A stretch of 47,907 nt of DNA from Candidatus Odyssella sp. (GCA_020726185.1 DYTB01000008.1:1-47907); one strand, 5' to 3'. Positions 7,944-16,805 are shown, numbered from the stretch's first letter. The notes: a model not told the origin generated them from the letters alone. Numbers and translations: made by a program.

Positions 7944-8399
7944 ATGGCTATGCGTTGGATTGTTTTTTTATTCATATTCCCTGTTCTTTTGGCGAGTGAT
8001 AAGGTTACTGTCAAAAATTTAGGGTTAAAAATTCTCAATGGCCCGAAAAATGGGGCAGGGTATGCCAGCGTTTATAATGGTAATGCTTTTGCTGTGACTT
8101 TGTATAAGGTTGAAGTGCAGCCAGAGGTTTTTGACCGGGTTGAATTGCATGATCATGTTCCCCGGGAAGATAAAAATGGCACCCAATACATGGAAATGAT
8201 AGAAATTCCAGAAATGGAAATAGCCCCGGGGGCTACGCTTTTTTTGCAACGTGGTGGAAAACACCTGATGTTAATGGGTATTAAACCAACCTTGTGTGGG
8301 TTTAAAAAATTGACGTTTGAATTCTTTTTTAGAACCGGAAAAGACAGCTTTGAGCAAAAAGTTGTCGTTGATGTCCTGAAAAATAAAAGATGCGAATAA
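7944..8399 (+). CDS. Periplasmic copper chaperone PCu(A)C family protein
   Basis: Members of this family (PF04314) bind copper in the periplasm and help metallate cytochrome c oxidase. The 151-residue protein starts with a signal peptide (about residues 1-18). The family landmarks are visible: ELHDHV, then Met residues in YMEMIEIPEMEI, APGATLFLQRGGKHLMLMGI with the His-x-Met pair, and a C-terminal beta strand region. The second in-frame ATG at 7950 is an alternative start. It is divergent from rapZ and followed by the secreted-protein island. Identification is by motif; copper binding is known for the family, not shown here. Confidence 0.85.
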   Translation: MAMRWIVFLFIFPVLLASDKVTVKNLGLKILNGPKNGAGYASVYNGNAFAVTLYKVEVQPEVFDRVELHDHVPREDKNGTQYMEMIEIPEMEIAPGATLFLQRGGKHLMLMGIKPTLCGFKKLTFEFFFRTGKDSFEQKVVVDVLKNKRCE

Positions 8400-8439
8400 C
8401 TAACTAAATTTTTTACTTTTTGTTAACTTTCTTACTTCT

Positions 8440-8494
8440 AGACTTTACTTTAGGCAGGTATTTTTCTGCTTACTTTTTGAAGGGAGTTTACAAG
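8440..8494 (+). promoter_or_regulatory. Shared 5' element, copy E (no AACATGTT block)
   Basis: AGACTTT (8440-8446) is followed by a hairpin: TAGGCAG (8451-8457) pairs with CTGCTTA (8466-8472) around GTATTTTT, with one G-T pair. Then AGGGAG leads to ATG 8495. The same arrangement with different stem bases precedes other genes of the island. Confidence 0.5.
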
Positions 8495-9021
8495 ATGAAA
8501 TTATTAAAAAATTTAGCACTTTTAATGTGCATGCAAATATCTATCACTTTTGCGATGGAAGGGGTTACGATTCAAGAAATTGATGCTGAACCTGCAGCTA
8601 GTGGTGGTGCAGGAATAACTCAGATATTTTTGCTTCTATGGACCCTCTTGGTAAAGCAATTGAAGAAATTGCAGAGCCAAACGTTGGCGTCGTTTTGGGA
8701 TTTATTATGGGGTCAGATGGTCAGCCTGTGCCAGTCATTAAACAGTATACTAAGCGTGATATTTTGGCAGGATTAGAGAATATAAATACAGGCACAAGCA
8801 TACTGATTGAGTTACTAAAAACAGAACAGCCAGACATCCCGCGCATAGTGGGCGCGTTATCAACTATTACAGGAAAAGATGTTCTTACATTGAAACCGCA
8901 TCTTTTGCAGGTTATCTGGGCTTTATACACTCCTGAGCCTGTTATGGTAGCAGCTAATAATGTTGGAACTCCAGAAGACGAGCTTCCTCGTATTGAAGAG
9001 CTTGGTGACAAAGATCTTTAA
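8495..9021 (+). pseudogene. Small secreted island protein, frameshifted
   Basis: The ATG at 8495 follows an AGGGAG box and gives the island-type signal peptide MKLLKNLALLMCMQISITFA. After SGGAGIT (about residue 42) that frame loses sense, while a frame starting DIFASMDPLGKAIEEIAEP carries on to TAA at 9021. The two frames join if one base is added near 8618-8622 (for example ACTCAG restored to ACTTCAG), giving about 175 residues. The mature part is helical, with RDILAGLENI and DVLTLKPHLLQVIWAL, and its acidic end is EDELPRIEELGDKDL. I do not recognise the family. Loss of one base in a short repeat could be decay or an assembly error. Confidence 0.7.
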
Positions 9022-9050
9022 AACAAGTCCGGAATAGTGTCTCTGCCTAT

Positions 9051-9087
9051 CATATCTATAAAATTTTATTAAAATTTTATAGATATG
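9051..9087. repeat. Perfect 18-bp inverted repeat
   Basis: Positions 9051-9068 and 9070-9087 are exact reverse complements around a single T, making a 37-bp near-perfect palindrome, wholly A/T apart from two base pairs on each arm. It sits 30 bp after the stop of the 8495 gene and 28 bp before the AACATGTT block of the next gene. It could terminate the first gene, bind a dimeric regulator, or extrude as a cruciform. Confidence 0.85.
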
Positions 9088-9114
9088 TATAAAAAGCATT
9101 TAAGGCATGTAAAT

Positions 9115-9223
9115 AAAACATGTTTTCTTCTGAGATTTCTTGTACCAGACTTTTATTGGCAGTTATTCTGCCATGTTACATATTATTAATGTTCAATATT
9201 ACCAATTTTTAGGAGTTTAGAAT
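9115..9223 (+). promoter_or_regulatory. Shared 5' element, copy A (full)
   Basis: AAAACATGTTTT (9115-9126) is a perfect 12-bp palindrome. Counting from AACATGTTT, exactly 24 nt (9126-9149) separate it from CTTTTATT (9150-9157). A hairpin follows: TGGCAG (9157-9162) and CTGCCA (9168-9173) with the loop TTATT. TTTTTAGGAG (9206-9215) then places the ribosome binding site 8 nt before ATG 9224. TTGTAC (9140-9145) with TTATTC (9163-9168) 17 nt later could be promoter boxes. Confidence 0.6.
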
Positions 9224-10132
9224 ATGAAGGTATTAAAAGGTTTAGTGTTAACAATGTTGGTTTCTACGGCGACGATCTTTGCAATGGATACTTCTGTTAG
9301 TGAAGTCATAACTGATGGTCAAACAGTTGCTAAAACTGCAGTGCTTGGCACAGTAGGTGATAGTCTTGTAATAAGAGCAGATGGTGGTATTGTTCATGAC
9401 CATGGAGTAGCAGGATCTATGGTTCTTACAGACACAGTAGACCACACCTCTGTTATCGCATTAAGCTCAACCGAAGTTGCTGCTATAAGCCTTACTCGCT
9501 TAATGACTGAAGGTAGTGTTGAAGAAAACACAAGCAGTGTTCTTTCAACAGTCTTGAGCACGTTAGGTAAGGGTACGAACGGTACTGAGGATGCTATTAC
9601 AGCACTTACAGGATTAGCAAGTGGAAGCGAGCTAATTTCTGTTGGCGTCTTGAATACTATTCAATCTGTGCTTGGTGTATTAACTAGTGAAATAGCAGGA
9701 GTGCATACTTGGAAGCAAACAACAACTGGCATACTAACCGCGCATGATATTGGTAGCGATGTAAGTGCTGATTCAGAAGGAAGCACTGTGTTTTCTTTGA
9801 CAGTAAATGAAGTAGCGAAAATTGAATTGTCTCGTCTAGTTACAGATTTAACAACAAGATTAAACACATTTAACCCTTTCACTTTGTCTGCAACAACGGA
9901 GCAGCTTACAAGTGTTATGGATAGCGTTGCTGGTGCTTATGATGCATTAAGTGAAGTTGATACTGCAACTTCTGAACTGGTTGATTCAGATGATGATACA
10001 GGTGATGTAGTTGGTGACTTATCTTCAAGTGTTATGGGATTAGGTATTGGAACAAGTGGTCTTCAAAGGCAAAGCACTGTTGCTGGTGGAGTAGATGAAG
10101 AAAGCACTGTTGACGAAGGCGATCTTTCATAA
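9224..10132 (+). CDS. Secreted Ser/Thr/Val-rich acidic protein, island type
   Basis: The 302-residue protein starts at an ATG preceded by AGGAG. The signal peptide is MKVLKGLVLTMLVSTATIFA, then MD. The mature chain is rich in Ser, Thr, Val, Gly and Asp and almost free of Lys and Cys, with no recognised domain. It contains an internal duplication: SVIALSSTEVAAISLTRLM (about 76-94) resembles STVFSLTVNEVAKIELSRLV (about 187-206), each followed by a leucine-rich helical stretch. The C-terminus is strongly acidic. The composition resembles extended surface or secreted proteins; function unknown. It has its own 5' element and its own terminator. Confidence 0.75.
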   Translation: MKVLKGLVLTMLVSTATIFAMDTSVSEVITDGQTVAKTAVLGTVGDSLVIRADGGIVHDHGVAGSMVLTDTVDHTSVIALSSTEVAAISLTRLMTEGSVEENTSSVLSTVLSTLGKGTNGTEDAITALTGLASGSELISVGVLNTIQSVLGVLTSEIAGVHTWKQTTTGILTAHDIGSDVSADSEGSTVFSLTVNEVAKIELSRLVTDLTTRLNTFNPFTLSATTEQLTSVMDSVAGAYDALSEVDTATSELVDSDDDTGDVVGDLSSSVMGLGIGTSGLQRQSTVAGGVDEESTVDEGDLS

Positions 10133-10161
10133 TTAACGAATACAAAAAAGCCTAAAAAGGG

Positions 10162-10191
10162 ACCAGCGCATTTGTTTGTGCTGGTTTTTTT
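10162..10191 (+). terminator. Intrinsic terminator after the 9224 gene
   Basis: ACCAGCGC (10162-10169) pairs with GTGCTGGT (10178-10185), with one G-T pair, around an 8-nt loop, followed by a T run ending at 10191. Confidence 0.88.
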
Positions 10192-10223
10192 CGTGGATTT
10201 TTAGATTTTTACTCATAAAAATA

Positions 10224-10314
10224 AAACATGTTTATTTATAGAATTTTTTCTTGCAGAATTTTATAAGCGATTACATGCGCTGTGCGAAATATTATTTTTT
10301 TAGGAGTTTGAAAT
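10224..10314 (+). promoter_or_regulatory. Shared 5' element, copy B (full)
   Basis: AAACATGTTT palindrome at 10224-10233, then exactly 24 nt to ATTTTATA (10258-10265), then a hairpin AGCG (10266-10269) / CGCT (10278-10281) with loop ATTACATG, then TTTTTTTAGGAG before ATG 10315. Stem bases differ from copy A but still pair. Confidence 0.6.
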
Positions 10315-10932
10315 ATGAAGTCACTAAAAAGTTTAGTGTTAATAATACTTGTCACAACGGTTACAGCTTTTTCGATGCACGATGAGCATTTAGCAGCTGC
10401 GGAAAACCCAGCTAGCATACCTGATTATAAACCGTCTTCTGTATTTTTAGGTATTTTGGCATTGGGGGATGGAGTCCCGTTTGATGAGAGTTCTATAGTA
10501 GGCACGACAAGTGGCGATTATAGCCCGGGAGTAATAGCTGGACTTTTAAGAAAAGCGTTGCGTAATGATGCGTCTATGTCTGCTACTTCTGACGTAAGAG
10601 GAAACATTGTCAATGGTCTAAAAAAGGTGCTTCAAAGTTTAGAAAGTGGTGCACAAACTAATGTTGAAGAAATTGAGTCTGCCATGAACCTGCTTGCGCT
10701 TGAAAACCCAAATGTTACAGAAGCAAAAAGGTCATTAGAAAACATCTTGAGTGTGCTGCAGGCACAACAATTTGTAGTTTCGGGTATTTTATCTGACTTA
10801 ACAAAAATGCCAGCTGATGGTTCGCCAGTTTTGAAAGAAACAGCTGTTGTTCGTGGTGATGATACAGTACAGCCAGTCGCATGGAACGCTTCTATGCGAG
10901 CTTTATACCATGGGTATGCTTGTGAAAGGTGA
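10315..10932 (+). CDS. Small secreted helical protein, island type
   Basis: The protein is 205 residues with signal peptide MKSLKSLVLIILVTTVTAFS, then MH. The mature part is predicted to be mostly helical: the segment starting SDVRGNIVNGLKKVLQSLES and the following MNLLALENPNVTEAKRSLEN form amphipathic leucine-rich helices. This pattern of two or three paired helices recurs in the 8495, 11075 and 14782 products, hinting at one fold despite little identity. No active-site motif is seen. A terminator hairpin lies after the gene, so it is probably monocistronic and controlled by the full 5' element upstream. Confidence 0.75.
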   Translation: MKSLKSLVLIILVTTVTAFSMHDEHLAAAENPASIPDYKPSSVFLGILALGDGVPFDESSIVGTTSGDYSPGVIAGLLRKALRNDASMSATSDVRGNIVNGLKKVLQSLESGAQTNVEEIESAMNLLALENPNVTEAKRSLENILSVLQAQQFVVSGILSDLTKMPADGSPVLKETAVVRGDDTVQPVAWNASMRALYHGYACER

Positions 10933-10969
10933 TGGTAATATCTAACAATTCAAGTCGCTAAAATTAAAT

Positions 10970-10998
10970 CCGGTGTTAAAAATTACACCGGGTTTTTT
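10970..10998 (+). terminator. Intrinsic terminator after the 10315 gene
   Basis: CCGGTGT (10970-10976) pairs with ACACCGG (10985-10991), followed by G and six T. Confidence 0.88.
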
Positions 10999-11022
10999 AC
11001 TATTTCTAAACCTTATTCCTGC

Positions 11023-11074
11023 AGACTTTATTTAAGGGTAAATGCCCAAGAAAATGTTTTTAGGAGTTTAGAAG
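11023..11074 (+). promoter_or_regulatory. Shared 5' element, copy F (no AACATGTT block)
   Basis: AGACTTT (11023-11029) is followed by GGG TAAATG CCC (11036-11047), a short stem at the place where the other copies have theirs, then GTTTTTAGGAGTTTAGAAG and ATG 11075. Confidence 0.45.
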
Positions 11075-11617
11075 ATGAAAATATTAAAAAAGTCGATATG
11101 CGCAATGCTATTGACGATGCCGTCCATTTTTCCAGGAGAAACTATTGAAGGTATCTTGCAGTTAGCCGAACCAGACTGGGCTGTAGCATCAACTGCTGGA
11201 ATAGCTGCGGATTCGCCTAAATCAGATATCAGTTTATCGGACCCTATAGATTTAGAGATTAGTACTACAATTACATTAACGAGCATGTTGCCTCATTTAG
11301 CTGAAAGTTCAAAAAAGCAAATTGAAGATGTCATTGCTGTATTACATGGTTCTAGTGATCAGAAATTTAAAGATGCTGAAACAATGTTAAGAGCATGCGA
11401 AATTACTCCAGACGAGGCGTTAGCAGATGAGGAAGATTTACCAGCTAGTATTGAACAAACAAGCTCTCAAAGAAATCAACGGTTGCTAGATCAAGATGTT
11501 TTACACGTTTTAAGATCGCTTGAAGTGTATATAAGGGATTTGCCAACAGAGGATGGTTACGATGCTGATGTTGAAAGTCGTAGCGTTGGTTCTGGTTCAT
11601 CTAAGAATTTTGGGTAG
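11075..11617 (+). CDS. Small secreted protein, island type
   Basis: The 180-residue product starts after a strong AGGAG box. Its N-terminus MKILKKSICAMLLTMPSIFP is a signal-like hydrophobic segment, less regular than its neighbours and containing Pro. The mature chain is acidic, with helical stretches around TSMLPHLAESSKKQIEDVIA and FKDAETMLRACEI, and a serine-rich C-terminus. It is convergent with the next, minus-strand gene. No known domain recognised. Resemblance to the 10315 and 14782 products is in helix pattern and signal peptide only. Confidence 0.72.
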   Translation: MKILKKSICAMLLTMPSIFPGETIEGILQLAEPDWAVASTAGIAADSPKSDISLSDPIDLEISTTITLTSMLPHLAESSKKQIEDVIAVLHGSSDQKFKDAETMLRACEITPDEALADEEDLPASIEQTSSQRNQRLLDQDVLHVLRSLEVYIRDLPTEDGYDADVESRSVGSGSSKNFG

Positions 11618-11661
11618 TTTAATTAATTCGATCAATAGTTAAACTGGTGCACTGAGTCTGC

Positions 11662-11680
11662 TTTTTAGAGCTTCTAAAAA
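11662..11680. terminator. Bidirectional A/T hairpin between convergent genes
   Basis: TTTTTAGA (11662-11669) pairs with TCTAAAAA (11673-11680) around GCT. It lies between the stops of the plus gene at 11075 and the minus gene at 11681, and reads as stem plus T-rich arm on either strand. Confidence 0.5.
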
Positions 11681-12193
11681 TTATTCTTCTGCTGCAGTTT
11701 CTGCTGCAGCTTCAGCCGCAGCTGCTGGATTACTCGCAATAGATTCTGCTTGTTCAACTTTTTCCATGAGTGTGTCGTATTTTCCTTCATATTTTGAGGC
11801 TATTCCGCACCCATGAGAAAGTTGCGGGCCAGCTTCTGGAACGGCGGTTAAGGCTAATGTTGCCGGACTGTCGCATATTTTAGAAAGGTCTTTTACGCTT
11901 TTCATGCATTTGTCTATGCTTTGAAGTGCCTTTTTACCTTTTTTGGGATTTTTGGCAGCACTTGCAAAAGCCTTGCCTATTGGTGCTATACATTTAAATA
12001 TTTTTTTCACATCACCAAGTAGTTTTTTAGCTTTTTTCATTGAGCCGCCAATACCTTTCCCTACTTTTTTCGCAACCTTACTAATTGATTTTCCTACTGG
12101 TTTTCCTTTTGCATGGCATTCTGGTGTTTGAAGACACACTGCAAAGAGCATAATCGCTAAACTTTTTAAAACAAGTAATTTCCTGATTTGCAT
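11681..12193 (-). CDS. Secreted Lys-rich cationic protein with acidic Ala tail
   Basis: This 170-residue product is the only minus-strand gene in the island. It has a signal peptide (about 1-28, ending ECHA). Residues about 29-90 are extremely rich in Lys and Gly, for example SKVAKKVGKGIGGSMKKAKK, and would form cationic amphipathic helices like those of membrane-active peptides. Four Cys follow in the mature part (KCIAP, DKCMK, ICDS, HGCG). The C-terminus is an Ala/Glu tail, AAAAEAAAETAAEE. A positive block followed by an acidic tail is reminiscent of propeptide neutralisation, but that is only a hypothesis. Nucleic-acid or lipopolysaccharide binding is an alternative. I do not recognise the family, and it lacks the shared 5' element. 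Confidence 0.7.
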   Translation of the reverse strand: MQIRKLLVLKSLAIMLFAVCLQTPECHAKGKPVGKSISKVAKKVGKGIGGSMKKAKKLLGDVKKIFKCIAPIGKAFASAAKNPKKGKKALQSIDKCMKSVKDLSKICDSPATLALTAVPEAGPQLSHGCGIASKYEGKYDTLMEKVEQAESIASNPAAAAEAAAETAAEE

Positions 12194-12297
12194 TTTTAGA
12201 ATAATTCATAATTATTACTTATGTTTATTAAACTTGTAAAATGTTAATATTTCGATAACATCAATTTATAGTTTTTATTTTAAAGTCCCAAGAAGAC

Positions 12298-12386
12298 AAC
12301 ATGTTTCTTTTTAAAATTTATTGATTCATACTTTTGTTGGCGGTTATTCGTCAAGTGAAATATTTTCTTTATTTAGGAGTTGAGAT
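12298..12386 (+). promoter_or_regulatory. Shared 5' element, copy C (full)
   Basis: AACATGTT (12298-12305) palindrome, exactly 24 nt from AACATGTTT to CTTTTGTT (12331-12338), then a hairpin TTGGCG (12337-12342) / CGTCAA (12349-12354) with loop GTTATT and one G-T pair, then TTTAGGAG before ATG 12387. TTGATT (12321-12326) lies 17 nt before TTATTC. Confidence 0.6.
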
Positions 12387-12863
12387 ATGAAAAGCCTAAG
12401 AAATTTAATATGTACAGTTTTAATGACCATGGCGATGGCTGTTGCAGGGGATGGTGAAGATTTAGAGGACAGAAGTAGTACAAGCATTCCTTTGAGTACT
12501 GCAGGTGGGGTAGTGCGTGAGGAAGGTGTAGGAACAGTCTATTGCAGTGATCCTCATTGCTTTGGGTGTAATTTATCTCGAGTATTAGCGCAGAGTGGCT
12601 CTTTTATAGGAGTACCAACAAGTTCTGTGCAAGTTCCACTAACTGCTGTTGGAGGCGCTGCTGAACCTGAATCTTTAAACAGCATGTTGCGTCGAATATT
12701 TGACCAAAATGGTGAGGACACAATGCAAGCATTAGATGAGAACTTTGGAGTTTTGGTGCTGCATCTTGTTCCTGTTCCTTCTGTTCCTTCTGTTCCTTCT
12801 GTTCCTTCAGCTGATGGTGATGCTGCTTCTAATGGTGGTGTTTCTGCTGATGGTGCTGAATAA
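12387..12863 (+). CDS. Small secreted protein with Val-Pro-Ser repeats, island type
   Basis: The 158-residue protein has signal peptide MKSLRNLICTVLMTMAMAVA. The mature part contains a Cys-rich patch YCSDPHCFGC (about 52-61), which could bind metal or form disulfides, a helical stretch SLNSMLRRIFDQNGEDTMQAL, and a VPSVPSVPSVPS run encoded by a 9-bp tandem repeat. The C-terminus is Gly/Ala/Asp-rich. No known domain recognised. Full 5' element upstream and a terminator downstream. Confidence 0.72.
   Translation: MKSLRNLICTVLMTMAMAVAGDGEDLEDRSSTSIPLSTAGGVVREEGVGTVYCSDPHCFGCNLSRVLAQSGSFIGVPTSSVQVPLTAVGGAAEPESLNSMLRRIFDQNGEDTMQALDENFGVLVLHLVPVPSVPSVPSVPSADGDAASNGGVSADGAE
12768..12809 (+). repeat. 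9-bp tandem repeat inside the 12387 gene
   Basis: Four tandem units of GTTCCTTCT (last ends in A) at 12774-12809, preceded by a partial unit at 12768, encode repeated Val-Pro-Ser. Units of 9 bp change length without breaking the frame. Confidence 0.9.
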
Positions 12864-12894
12864 TTAAGCCTTGAAATATTTTATGTTGTTATGC

Positions 12895-12929
12895 AAATTC
12901 CCTCTTTGGTTCTTTCAGAGGGGGAATTT
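12895..12929 (+). terminator. Hairpin terminator after the 12387 gene
   Basis: AAATTCCC (12895-12902) pairs with GGGAATTT (12922-12929) and the stem extends inward through CT/AG pairs with a wobble. The T run is poor (ATTTATAAG), so termination efficiency is uncertain. Confidence 0.6.
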
Positions 12930-12967
12930 ATAAGAAATAAGCTAATTGTAAGAGAAAGATCTAAAAA

Positions 12968-13519
12968 ATGAAGTGTTTGAAAGGCTTGTTATTAGTAAGG
13001 TTAACATCGATTTTTTTTACAGCTAACGGGTATGCTGTCGCTGACGATGTGTCAGATGTTAGCGATGGCGAAGAAGAGGTGACGCGAATAACCCATGGTG
13101 CGCCAGTTGTAACAACAAGGAAAAGCTTAACGAACAGTGGAAGCACTTTCGCTAGTTCAGATGCAAACTTAACAGCTGATGTATTAAAGGAAGTTACAAT
13201 TCAAACTGCTAAAAATAAGCTATTGAAAATTAAACCAGAGCTAGATTTGACTGTGTGGGAATCTGTTGAAGAGGTTTTGCTTACAAATGATCCGAAGTCA
13301 ATTGTGATATTGCTAGATAAATTGGTTACGAAAAAAGTTGCTCGTTTGGGTACTGGTTCGCAGAGAGAAGCTAGCTTCAAAATGGTCATTTCATCTATTG
13401 CTAGGAGCCTTAGCAAGGCAATATTATCGCCCTCAAAGAAAACAGATTCGATGGACAGCTTGAATGTTTACGATGAACATGCAAGTGGTAGCCCTGATGA
13501 TTATTCTAATGAATATTGA
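12968..13519 (+). CDS. Small secreted helical protein, island type
   Basis: The 183-residue product begins MKCLKGLLLVRLTSIFFTAN, a signal peptide of the island type with an unusual Arg inside the hydrophobic core. After an acidic stretch (DDVSDVSDGEEEV) the chain is helical and basic, with VLKEVTIQTAKNKLLKIKPE and a Lys-rich KLVTKKVARL segment, ending in a Ser/Asp-rich tail. Its ribosome binding site is weak (AAGAGAAAG further upstream) and it lacks the AACATGTT block, so it may be read through from the preceding gene. No known domain recognised. Confidence 0.68.
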   Translation: MKCLKGLLLVRLTSIFFTANGYAVADDVSDVSDGEEEVTRITHGAPVVTTRKSLTNSGSTFASSDANLTADVLKEVTIQTAKNKLLKIKPELDLTVWESVEEVLLTNDPKSIVILLDKLVTKKVARLGTGSQREASFKMVISSIARSLSKAILSPSKKTDSMDSLNVYDEHASGSPDDYSNEY

Positions 13520-13543
13520 TTTTTTTGCATGGTAGCACTGCGT

Positions 13544-13637
13544 AAAAAACATGTTTTTTCCTAAAAATTTTTAATACACACTTTTATATGCGTTTGTTCC
13601 GCAAATAAAGAAATTCATTTTTTAAAGAGGCTAGAAC
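13544..13637 (+). promoter_or_regulatory. Shared 5' element, copy D (full)
   Basis: AAAAAACATGTTTTTT (13544-13559) is a perfect 16-bp palindrome. From AACATGTTT there are exactly 24 nt to CTTTTATA (13581-13588), then a hairpin TGCG (13589-13592) / CGCA (13600-13603) with loop TTTGTTC, then AAAGAGG before ATG 13638. Confidence 0.6.
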
Positions 13638-14171
13638 ATGAAGTTACTTAGGAATTTGGCATTTGCAGTATTGGCGGCCAAAGTTGTGCTTTTTTCAGGA
13701 TTGTTTTGTGGAGAGTTTTCTGAACTAGGGATTGAGGAAAAGAAAAGCACAACCGTTCCTCTTTCGTGTTCTATTCCAGTTAAAGCTTGTGAGTTATGGG
13801 GGCATAATCTGACTGATTCCATGTTTATGTTGTACAGACCATGTCAAGAATTGAATCAGTTGTTTATCATTTTTCGTGCAAATAATGGAAAAAAATATAC
13901 ATGCTGGGATGTGTCTCATTTAATTACTAATTCCCAAGTTGTGTCACTAACTGCTGGTATCGCAGAAGAAAAAAAATCAGGCTTTAGTTCAAGGAGAGCA
14001 ACGCAAGATTTAAGTAAACATTGGAAAGAGACAGAAGCAGAGCAAAATTCTACTCTTCATTCTGGGCTTTCTATTGCAATTCCAACAGATTCAGATGTAA
14101 GTAGGAATCGTGGTCGCTCAATCGATTGGTATATAGGTCATTCACCAACTTCACCAATACTTGTCCATTAA
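13638..14171 (+). CDS. Small secreted Cys-containing protein, island type
   Basis: The 177-residue product has signal peptide MKLLRNLAFAVLAAKVVLFS. Mature features: Cys residues in FCGEF, LSCSIPVKACELW, RPCQEL and YTCWDV, suggesting disulfides outside the cytoplasm, and a beta-rich centre. The C-terminal phrase DWYIGHSPTSP resembles FYIGSPPLSP in the next product, so the two may be distant relatives. No known domain recognised. It carries the full 5' element and is 32 nt ahead of the next gene, so the two may be co-transcribed. Confidence 0.7.
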   Translation: MKLLRNLAFAVLAAKVVLFSGLFCGEFSELGIEEKKSTTVPLSCSIPVKACELWGHNLTDSMFMLYRPCQELNQLFIIFRANNGKKYTCWDVSHLITNSQVVSLTAGIAEEKKSGFSSRRATQDLSKHWKETEAEQNSTLHSGLSIAIPTDSDVSRNRGRSIDWYIGHSPTSPILVH

Positions 14172-14203
14172 AAGCGCAATATTAAACTAGGATTTTACAA
14201 AAA

Positions 14204-14689
14204 ATGATGAACTTGAAAAAATTGATACTAGTGGTTCTATTATCAAACTTTATGATTTTTGCGGAAGATGATTTGAATTTTCCAAATGGTAATAGGTTGA
14301 CAAATCATGCTGCTTCATCGGCCTTTTTATCACAACAATTTCCTGTACTTTTTGTAGACATATCTTTTACGTATGGTCAGCCAATTGTCGGAATATTTTA
14401 TTTTATGTATACAGTTGTGGCTGAAAGTTTTTATGCGAGAATGATGAGTTTTAGTTTTGCGGTGAGGCCTGCAAACTTTAAAAGAACTGATGGAAATTTG
14501 CACCTACCTGATTTGGATACTAATGTTCTTACCCTTACTCTTCCTGAAGACTGCAGCCGCCAGTCTACATTGTCGCCTTGCTTTTATATAGGGTCCCCTC
14601 CTTTATCTCCGTTTTCATCTCCGCAGCGTTCAGGGGTTCGTAAACGTGCTCCTAGTAACTCTTACATGACCAATGTTGATCTATTCTAA
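14204..14689 (+). CDS. Small secreted protein, island type
   Basis: The 161-residue product begins with two Met; the ATG at 14207 gives MNLKKLILVVLLSNFMIFA, the better signal peptide match to its neighbours. The mature part is aromatic-rich (VDISFTYGQPIVGIFYFMYT) and ends in a Ser/Pro/Arg-rich tail with YIGSPPLSPFSSPQ. That motif echoes the 13638 product. Only a weak AGGA-like box (CTAGGAT) precedes it, consistent with transcription from the upstream gene. No known domain recognised. Confidence 0.66.
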   Translation: MMNLKKLILVVLLSNFMIFAEDDLNFPNGNRLTNHAASSAFLSQQFPVLFVDISFTYGQPIVGIFYFMYTVVAESFYARMMSFSFAVRPANFKRTDGNLHLPDLDTNVLTLTLPEDCSRQSTLSPCFYIGSPPLSPFSSPQRSGVRKRAPSNSYMTNVDLF

Positions 14690-14735
14690 CAATAAAAACC
14701 TTTAAATTGGAATTAAATTATGGTATATATCTTGG

Positions 14736-14781
14736 CTTTGTGACCCCCAAACAATGGGAATTTTTTATAGGAGTTAAGAAT
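14736..14781 (+). promoter_or_regulatory. Shared 5' leader, weak copy G
   Basis: CTTTG (14736-14740) is followed by CCC AAACAAT GGG (14746-14758), a 3-bp stem, and TTTTTTATAGGAGTTAAGAAT before ATG 14782. The ribosome-binding leader clearly matches the island; the stem alone would not be convincing. Confidence 0.35.
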
Positions 14782-15108
14782 ATGAATTATCTAAAGAGTT
14801 TAATGCTAATAGTGGTGGTGGCGGTATCTAATGCATCTGCGTCGACTGGGCTTGAGGAATTAATGGAAAATATGCATGTTTTTTCTGGTTGGGTTGGTCG
14901 CGCTAAAGCCATATTGCCAACGGTTCCTTGTTCTGATGAACTGCGCGTAGAAATTGCTTCAATGGTGGCAAATCTTGATGTTAATCAAGAAGAAGCGCTT
15001 GCAGCAATGGTAACTTGGTTTAGTGTTTTTGATGATGCTGAGCTAAATACTGATGGTGCTCATTTTAAATCTGCAATTAGAAAAATCTTCAACCCTGCTG
15101 TTTCATGA
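14782..15108 (+). CDS. Small secreted helical protein, island type
   Basis: The frame is open from a TTG at 14707, but the ATG at 14782 follows AGGAG at the right distance and gives the signal peptide MNYLKSLMLIVVVAVSNASA, so the protein is 108 residues. The mature part is a short helical domain: LEELMENMHVFSGWVGRAKA and then DELRVEIASMVANLDVNQEE and a final AIRKIF helix. It resembles the helical parts of the 8495 and 10315 products in pattern. It ends the island, with a strong hairpin after it. Function unknown. Confidence 0.72.
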   Translation: MNYLKSLMLIVVVAVSNASASTGLEELMENMHVFSGWVGRAKAILPTVPCSDELRVEIASMVANLDVNQEEALAAMVTWFSVFDDAELNTDGAHFKSAIRKIFNPAVS

Positions 15109-15118
15109 TTAGTTTATT

Positions 15119-15151
15119 AAATCCCTATAGTTAAAAGCTATGGGGATTTTT
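15119..15151 (+). terminator. Intrinsic terminator at the end of the secreted island
   Basis: AAATCCCTATAG (15119-15130) pairs with CTATGGGGATTT (15138-15149), with one T-G pair, around TTAAAAG; the T run continues to 15151. Confidence 0.88.
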
Positions 15152-15177
15152 GTTCTTGTGTTTCCTGGTTTTAGCGA

Positions 15178-15206
15178 TTGAGCTTTAGGTACATTTTATA
15201 TAGACT
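15178..15206 (+). promoter_or_regulatory. Putative lysS promoter
   Basis: TTGAGC (15178-15183), a 17-nt spacer and TAGACT (15201-15206) resemble sigma-70 boxes upstream of lysS. Sequence match only. Confidence 0.4.
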
Positions 15207-15239
15207 AAATCAGTTTTTAAAAGGTTTTATAGCTAGATT

Positions 15240-16805
15240 ATGTCTAACAATTCTGCGGTTTCTAATACAACATTTGATGCTAAATCATGGCCGTTTGAAG
15301 AGGCAAAACGGGTATTAGCACGTCTACAGGGCAAGACACCTGAAAAAGGCTATGTGCTTTTTGAAACTGGCTATGGACCTTCGGGATTGCCACACATTGG
15401 AACGTTTGCCGAAGTATTACGCACAACTATGGTGCGCAAAGCGTTTGAAACGCTTAGTGATATTCCTACACGTTTATTTTGTTTTTCAGATGATATGGAT
15501 GGCTTTCGTAAAGTTCCCGATAACGTGCCCAATAAAGATATGCTGGCTAAATACTTGAACATGCCACTAACCAAGGTGCCAGACCCTTATGAAAAATTTG
15601 AAAGCTTCGGTCACCATAATAATGCGATGCTTCAACGCTTTTTAGATAGTTATGGTTTTGAATATGAATTTCAAAGTTCTACTGATTGGTATACATCTGG
15701 GCGGTTTGACCCTTCTTTGAAATTAGTGTTGCAACATTACGATGAAATTATGGGCATTATGTTGCCAACTTTGCGTGAAGAGCGTCGTGCGACTTACAGC
15801 CCATTTTTGCCACTATGTCCTAGAACAGGGCACGTTTTACAAGTTCCTATGGTTGAAGTGCGCCCGGAAAGTGATTCAGTTGTTTACAGGGACCCTGAAA
15901 CGAACCAGCTAACTGAAGTCAAAATTACAGGTGGCAGTTGCAAATTGCAGTGGAAGATCGACTGGGGCATGCGTTGGAAGGCTCTTGGGGTTGATTATGA
16001 AATGTCCGGCAAGGATTTAATTGATTCAGTGAAGTTATCATCGCAAGTATGTAGGGTTATTGGCGGGCGTGCGCCTGAAAATTTAACCTATGAATTGTTC
16101 TTAGATGATATTGGCCAAAAGATTAGTAAGTCTAAGGGTAATGGCCTAAGCATGGACGAATGGCTAACTTATGCACCGCAAGAAAGCTTGGCATATTTTA
16201 TGTACCAAGCACCTAAAAAAGCTAAGCGTTTGTTTTTTGATGTTATTCCTAAAGCAGTAGATGAATACCTGCAGCACGTAAGCAAATTTACGCCAGAGCA
16301 ATATGATAACCCTGTTTGGCATATTCATGGCGGTAAAGCCCCAGCTGCTGAAAGCGGTTTAAGCTTTAACATATTGTTGAACTTAGCATCGGTTGTGAAT
16401 GCTGATGAGGGTAGTATTTTGTGGGGCTTTGTGAAGCGTTATGTGCCGGGTGCCGATGAAGCATCTATGCCGTTTTTAGCAGAAATGATTACCTATGCAG
16501 TGAAGTACTATCAAGATTTTGTAAAACCCAAAAAACAATACCGAGCGCCAAATCAAATGGAGCGTGAGGCTTTGCAACGCTTGCATGATGAACTGGAAGA
16601 TATATCATTTGAAAGCACTGCAGAGGACCTGCAAGGCATTGTGTTTGAGGTGGGTAAACAGTTTGCGTTTTCTGACTTGCGTCAGTGGTTTGGAACGCTG
16701 TATGAAGTATTATTAGGGCAAGCAGAAGGCCCGCGTATGGGTTCTTTCATTGCACTATTTGGTATTGCTGAAACAAGAGCATTAATACAGGAGAAGTTAG
16801 CATGA
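15240..16805 (+). CDS. lysS: Lysyl-tRNA synthetase, class I
   Basis: This enzyme charges tRNA(Lys) with lysine. The 521-residue protein is the class I (archaeal/alphaproteobacterial) form, unrelated to the class II LysRS of E. coli. The Rossmann-fold signatures are present: GPSGLPHIGT (HIGH motif, about residues 41-50) and KISKSKG (KMSKS motif, about 295-301). The C-terminal helical anticodon-binding region follows. ATGA overlap with the next gene suggests a two-gene operon. A class I enzyme supports alphaproteobacterial ancestry, although it also occurs in archaea and spirochaetes. Confidence 0.95.
   Translation: MSNNSAVSNTTFDAKSWPFEEAKRVLARLQGKTPEKGYVLFETGYGPSGLPHIGTFAEVLRTTMVRKAFETLSDIPTRLFCFSDDMDGFRKVPDNVPNKDMLAKYLNMPLTKVPDPYEKFESFGHHNNAMLQRFLDSYGFEYEFQSSTDWYTSGRFDPSLKLVLQHYDEIMGIMLPTLREERRATYSPFLPLCPRTGHVLQVPMVEVRPESDSVVYRDPETNQLTEVKITGGSCKLQWKIDWGMRWKALGVDYEMSGKDLIDSVKLSSQVCRVIGGRAPENLTYELFLDDIGQKISKSKGNGLSMDEWLTYAPQESLAYFMYQAPKKAKRLFFDVIPKAVDEYLQHVSKFTPEQYDNPVWHIHGGKAPAAESGLSFNILLNLASVVNADEGSILWGFVKRYVPGADEASMPFLAEMITYAVKYYQDFVKPKKQYRAPNQMEREALQRLHDELEDISFESTAEDLQGIVFEVGKQFAFSDLRQWFGTLYEVLLGQAEGPRMGSFIALFGIAETRALIQEKLA

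Follow-up and report, generated by a model that had tools for sequence, protein, structure and literature searches.

A composite 5' element precedes an array of exported-protein genes in a 47,907-nt stretch of DNA from Candidatus Odyssella sp., a protist-dwelling alphaproteobacterium (GCA_020726185.1 DYTB01000008.1:1-47907; hereafter the window). Four full copies stand before the genes at 9224, 10315, 12387 and 13638, as a preliminary description of this DNA had proposed, and they are accompanied by two shorter ones. The copies share a fixed geometry, are conserved in congeneric species, retain a paired hairpin and are restricted to one island. On balance, we think that the element is probably a lineage-specific promoter and 5'-UTR module, activated by a LysR-type regulator and carrying a 5' hairpin, that drives an island of duplicated, fast-evolving genes for exported proteins.

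A repeated element in the window

The palindrome AACATGTT occurs exactly five times in the window, against about two expected, and four of these occurrences belong to element copies, with true starts (9117, 10225, 12298 and 13548) 0-4 nt from where they had been placed originally. In all four copies exactly 24 nt separate AACATGTTT from the CTTTTAT-like block (CTTTTAT at 9150, ATTTTAT at 10258, CTTTTGT at 12331 and CTTTTAT at 13581), in keeping with the first report. The fixed spacing holds for the upstream half of the element, the stretch from the hairpin to the ATG being variable in length. The AGGAG leader is found in three of the four full copies, with AAGAGG before 13638; over all six element genes, the ribosome sites read AGGAG (9224, 10315, 11075 and 12387), GGGAG (8495) and AAGAGG (13638). 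Elsewhere, AGGAG precedes 14782 and 3 of the 33 other starts checked.

Partial copies had been suggested before three further genes. Those at 8495 and 11075 are genuine (each E<1e-9 with the profile R1, below), forming a short class that keeps the T-rich core, C/TANACT, the hairpin and the leader, whereas 14782 shares the leader only and is not a copy (E=1.08 genome-wide with R1; leader alone, 0.0057). The coordinates are collected in Table 1. Immediately 5' of the c1 element, a long AT-rich inverted repeat, CATATCTATAAAATTTTA/TAAAATTTTATAGATATG, can be seen by eye (9051-9087); the related genome G002 aligns with its 3' arm only.

Table 1. The exported-protein gene island and the element copies in the window (c1 to c4, full copies; positions counted from the first letter of the window)
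Feature	Coordinates	Strand	Remarks
Exported-protein gene island, duplicated genes	8400..15239	.	between PCu(A)C-like gene and lysS; present in congeners
PCu(A)C-like gene	7944-8399		left flank of island
lysS	15240-16805		right flank of island
Short-class copy, gene 8495	8413..8497	+	TAGACT 8439-8444, hairpin 8451-8472, GGGAG; without palindrome; orthologs in G002, G008
c1 upstream sites, ATG-N9-CAT-N7-ATG-N9-CAT	9085..9121	+	LysR-like spacing; exact match; conserved columns
c1 palindrome AACATGTT	9117..9124	+
c1 putative -10 (CAGACT) and discriminator, CAGACTTTTAT	9146..9156	+	A2, T6 invariant over copies
c1 hairpin TGGCAG/CTGCCA	9157..9173	+
c1 ribosome site AGGAG	9211..9215	+	gene 9224
c2 palindrome AACATGTT	10225..10232	+
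c2 putative -10 and discriminator, CAGAATTTTAT	10254..10264	+
c2 hairpin AGCG/CGCT	10266..10281	+	weak fold on its own
c2 ribosome site AGGAG	10302..10306	+	gene 10315
Short-class copy, gene 11075	10997..11077	+	CAGACT 11022-11027, hairpin GGGT/GCCC 11036-11047, AGGAG; without palindrome
c3 palindrome AACATGTT	12298..12305	+
c3 putative -10 and discriminator, CATACTTTTGT	12327..12337	+
c3 hairpin TTGGCGG/TCGTCAA	12337..12354	+
c3 ribosome site AGGAG	12375..12379	+	gene 12387
c4 upstream sites	13516..13552	+	LysR-like spacing, 2 mismatches
c4 palindrome AACATGTT	13548..13555	+
c4 putative -10 and discriminator, CACACTTTTAT	13577..13587	+
c4 hairpin TGCG/CGCA	13589..13603	+
c4 ribosome site AAGAGG	13625..13630	+	gene 13638

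Confinement to one syntenic island

R1, a sequence-only profile built from the six window copies (four full and two shorter), returned only those six from the 1.54-Mb genome (94.7% complete), each with E<1e-9, the next match having E=0.04; the weak matches do not lie in front of exported-protein genes of the island type. Further copies are thus absent from the rest of this genome but present in seven congeneric species, where R1 found 16, all in the syntenic island. Since R1 was trained on the six, it is these homologous copies that provide independent proof of the element. Searched against 143 relatives, R1 gave strong matches in the same genus only. A second profile, made from 22 copies, returned 22 matches in 8 of 11 species (E<2e-7), then a gap to 6e-4, and those of its next-best matches that were opened gave no sign of being copies; as it recovers its own 22 training sequences, this result speaks for completeness and is not independent evidence. 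A weaker 23rd copy, G005c, lies within the island of its genome.

All copies fall in the interval between the PCuAC gene and lysS, or beside one of these genes at contig breaks, and none was found outside the island in the genus genomes searched. The interval is nearly empty in two loci (L069 and L081) and holds a single unrelated gene on the opposite strand in another (L068). Judged by lysS relatives, the group belongs to the Paracaedibacteraceae (Holosporales), and MAGs labelled Candidatus Finniella inopinata are closest to it. Lineage-specific exported-protein genes have built up in the island. A widespread regulon was rejected, as the profile searches gave no further copies. The idea of a jointly controlled secreted arsenal therefore stands in its link to exported-protein genes and fails in its genome-wide reach: because the element is confined to a single island in every species, it would control a local array, not a scattered arsenal. 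Similarly, "secreted" holds only in the sense of Sec export, judged from signal peptides by inspection.

Other exported proteins were seen in the window. The tandem pair at 82-1923 encodes homologous proteins (MFKKL...) and does so without the element. Inside the island, 11681-12193 on the minus strand encodes a Lys-rich exported protein that has no Pfam match, with similar-looking ones in L064, L065, L066 and L067.

Upstream sites and a candidate regulator

A gapless alignment of the 16 palindrome-class copies runs from about -60 to +12, where 0 is the base preceding CANACT, and give the consensus aTG..tttTt.gcAT.taAG..aTGcaAAAAAAACATGTTTTTTtcTaAAATTTtTT..T.CAgACTTTTAT, then a stem-loop whose shared core resembles GCGATTATTCGC. 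Variants of AACATGTT (AATATGTT, AACATATT and AATATATT) never alter its central AT. The palindrome had been described as the upstream part of the element, but it is not alone there: conserved positions reach -60 (-59/-58, -47/-46 and -37/-36, in addition to the palindrome AT at -25/-24) and fit a LysR-type spacing, together reading AT-N11-AT-N7-AT-N11-AT. This is the reported layout for LelB and LelC, LysR-type regulators of Legionella effector genes (PMC12239595), and the two systems resemble each other both in the AT spacing upstream of the -10 and in the local regulation of genes for host-interaction proteins. Unlike in Legionella, no regulator gene lies in or beside the island, and the predicted sites are joined to a module of 5' hairpin and signal peptide.

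The LysR-like spacing is matched at a mean of 6.88 of 8 positions over the 16 copies and ranks first among 1871 spacings (runner-up, 6.75), with a hypergeometric estimate of p about 0.01 that is post hoc, the columns having been seen first. Exact matches to the 12-base ATG-N9-CAT-N7-ATG-N9-CAT in the fetched loci are limited to three element copies, which show up in 13 loci that overlap one another, and with up to three mismatches the pattern shows no excess over chance in the window. The strongest dyad is AACATGTT itself, and part of the upstream array is missing from c2, c3 and G005b. From the spacing, then, a LysR-type assignment is plausible, as a lead of moderate strength.

LysR matches number one to three per genome in 10 of the 11 genomes of the genus. 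The best-conserved protein (G000:C44) is present in nine of them, three of which lack the element; no LysR gene was found in G005 (98% complete) despite its three element copies, which may reflect an assembly gap. An identification of the conserved protein as VtlR/LsrB could not be established, there being no trxB neighbour in the loci examined and no NCBIfam equivalog above cut-off. Another LysR-like gene (G000:C32:11119-11492; L207, L218), which lies in two frames with stops, is probably a decayed regulator.

Putative promoter core and hairpin

No copy departs from A2 or T6 of CANACT, as would be predicted for a -10 element; position 1 is C instead of T. The CTTTTAT motif, originally set apart as a separate block, is better read as the end of this putative -10 plus the discriminator, which would make the hairpin the 5'-terminal part of the mRNA. 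Transcription would start 6-8 nt downstream of the -10, at the initial bases of the stem, giving an mRNA with the hairpin at its very start. On this numbering the centres of the upstream boxes would fall near -66 and -44, positions that we take to suit LysR recognition and activation sites. A consensus scan of the aligned core revealed no recognisable -35 at 16-18 nt, and a poor -35 would be natural in an activated promoter.

Sigma70-family genes number just two in the genome, one the size of RpoD and the other the size of RpoH. A sigma-54 promoter was rejected given the absence of rpoN (no PF04552 match in the genome; control genomes positive), as were TTGGCA of the c1 hairpin as a -35, which misfits in c2, c4 and others, and TAAAAT at -14 as a -10, whose position 2 is G in 7 of the 16 palindrome-class copies. 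An RpoH promoter was likewise set aside, heat-shock genes offering no usable comparison: groES has TTGACA-N17-TAAATA with an apparent CIRCE operator, and clpB and hsp20 yielded nothing to compare. The -10 of the element partly resembles that of alphaproteobacterial RpoH promoters.

The proposal of a hairpin that changes in sequence and keeps its pairing was borne out. Over the 34 nt after the core, the folding energies of 23 copies sum to -115 kcal/mol, compared with -67±8.7 for dinucleotide shuffles (0 of 300 as low), and the upstream gap and the leader, used as control stretches, show no folding excess over shuffles. When 3' arms were dealt to other copies, 0 of 5000 permutations paired as well as the real arms did (z 4.6). 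Full independence cannot be claimed for related copies, and a set with one copy per group gives the same answer (-75.7 against -38.8±6.8 for shuffles). The stem is kept by pairing for the set of copies rather than in each copy: it is absent from p6 of G002 and weak in G004a and G009b.

An Rfam search gave 0 matches above the gathering score. Hairpins at the 5' end hinder RppH and stabilise mRNA (PMC3997798), and by analogy the hairpin may be a 5'-terminal stem-loop that stabilises the mRNA. The ompA and papA stabilisers (references in PMC3997798) are likewise short stem-loops near the 5' end of exported-protein mRNAs; the present hairpin, by contrast, forms a unit with a conserved promoter in many copies, and the 5' end next to it is a predicted one.

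Proposed mechanism and alternatives

Taken together, these features suggest that the upstream sites, the last CAT of which lies within AACATGTT in an A-tract/T-tract setting, would bind an activator, most likely of the LysR type, that makes up for the poor -35. RNA polymerase would use the -10 CANACT with a TTTTAT discriminator and start on the first G of the hairpin or on an adjacent base. The mRNA would thus open with a stem-loop that shields its 5' end, and a strong ribosome site and the signal peptide would come next. The shorter version, carried by two genes, lacks the upstream sites.

It is also conceivable, if rather unlikely in our view, that tandem duplication multiplied an ordinary constitutive promoter with no dedicated regulator, with the palindrome and A/T tracts serving RpoD polymerase as an UP-like element or as bent DNA. 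This would agree with the limitation of copies to one tandem array, with signal peptides that are similar too, with the presence of two sigma70-family factors only and with the element of G005, carried without a detectable LysR gene. However, conserved positions extend far upstream of the core promoter, and the element retains its sequence and spacing in spite of divergence in mature coding regions and at fourfold sites, which argues that selection acts on the element.

The covarying stem would also suit a leader that is transcribed from further upstream and works as a regulatory RNA, either a thermometer or a protein-binding hairpin controlling translation, in which CTTTTAT may pair with the AGGAG region. 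Such a CTTTTA-TAGGAG pairing can be drawn by inspection with two G-U pairs, yet base composition would lead one to expect pairing between T-rich and purine-rich stretches, and the C-G pair is lost in c2; given also the lack of an Rfam match and a hairpin-to-ATG stretch of variable length with no fold signal, we consider a regulatory RNA improbable. We give very little credence to the inverted repeat 3' of CTTTTAT being a DNA operator over the start site instead of an RNA hairpin. With the -10 at TTTTAT its 5' arm would be untranscribed, and inverted repeats over +1 are common repressor sites, but the arms differ among copies with pairing kept, and a protein operator would keep its sequence.

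For the promoter and 5'-UTR module that we favour, the kinds of part are known (shared effector-gene promoters and 5' stabilising hairpins), and the module itself is lineage-specific. To our knowledge, gene regulation and exported host-interaction proteins have been little studied in Holosporales symbionts of protists; the module offers both a sequence signature for candidate host-interaction genes and a defined regulatory unit, with a regulator class, to test. The p28-Omp proteins of Ehrlichia chaffeensis are homologous throughout, whereas the mature parts of the proteins here are mostly unrelated. The likeness, drawn from description, is that of an intracellular alphaproteobacterium with RpoD and RpoH as its only sigma factors and an exported-protein gene family with analysed promoters (PMC2694197, PMC3836757).

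A conserved 5' block in front of divergent proteins

Between the genomes G000 and G002, element regions are 77-97% identical, compared with 62% for lysS fourfold sites. The signal peptides of island genes are similar, whereas mature proteins of different island genes within one genome have no detectable similarity, with the exception of a versus c in G005 (E=0.003), and the mature parts of orthologous c1 and c3 proteins gave no match across species. For c1 of G000 and G002, a 5' block (93% over 213 nt; 97% upstream, and no difference in the first 51 coding nt) extends as far as the end of the signal peptide, and similarity resumes only at the last codons and the terminator; in the c3 ortholog pair, DNA similarity stops just past the signal peptide.

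These boundaries suggest that behind an unchanging 5' cassette the payload has been exchanged or has diverged very fast. We tentatively raise the possibility that the cassette, from the regulator sites through promoter, hairpin and ribosome site to the signal peptide, stays constant and receives unrelated mature proteins by exchange where the signal peptide ends. If true, a swapping island would generate new exported proteins under ready-made control. The island offers a locus at which any exchange of payloads can be followed across species while promoter and signal peptide stay fixed, and its interest would be greatest if such swapping were confirmed.

A Pfam search for protein function gave no significant match, and a structure model of the 13638 protein was uninformative (pLDDT 32). 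The first island gene (8495-9021) is frameshifted, the reading frame of its signal peptide differing from that of the remainder; the ortholog of G002 carries a frameshift too, with a slight displacement of the affected base, and that of G008 is an intact 174-aa ORF, a pattern that may reflect either independent decay or a programmed shift.
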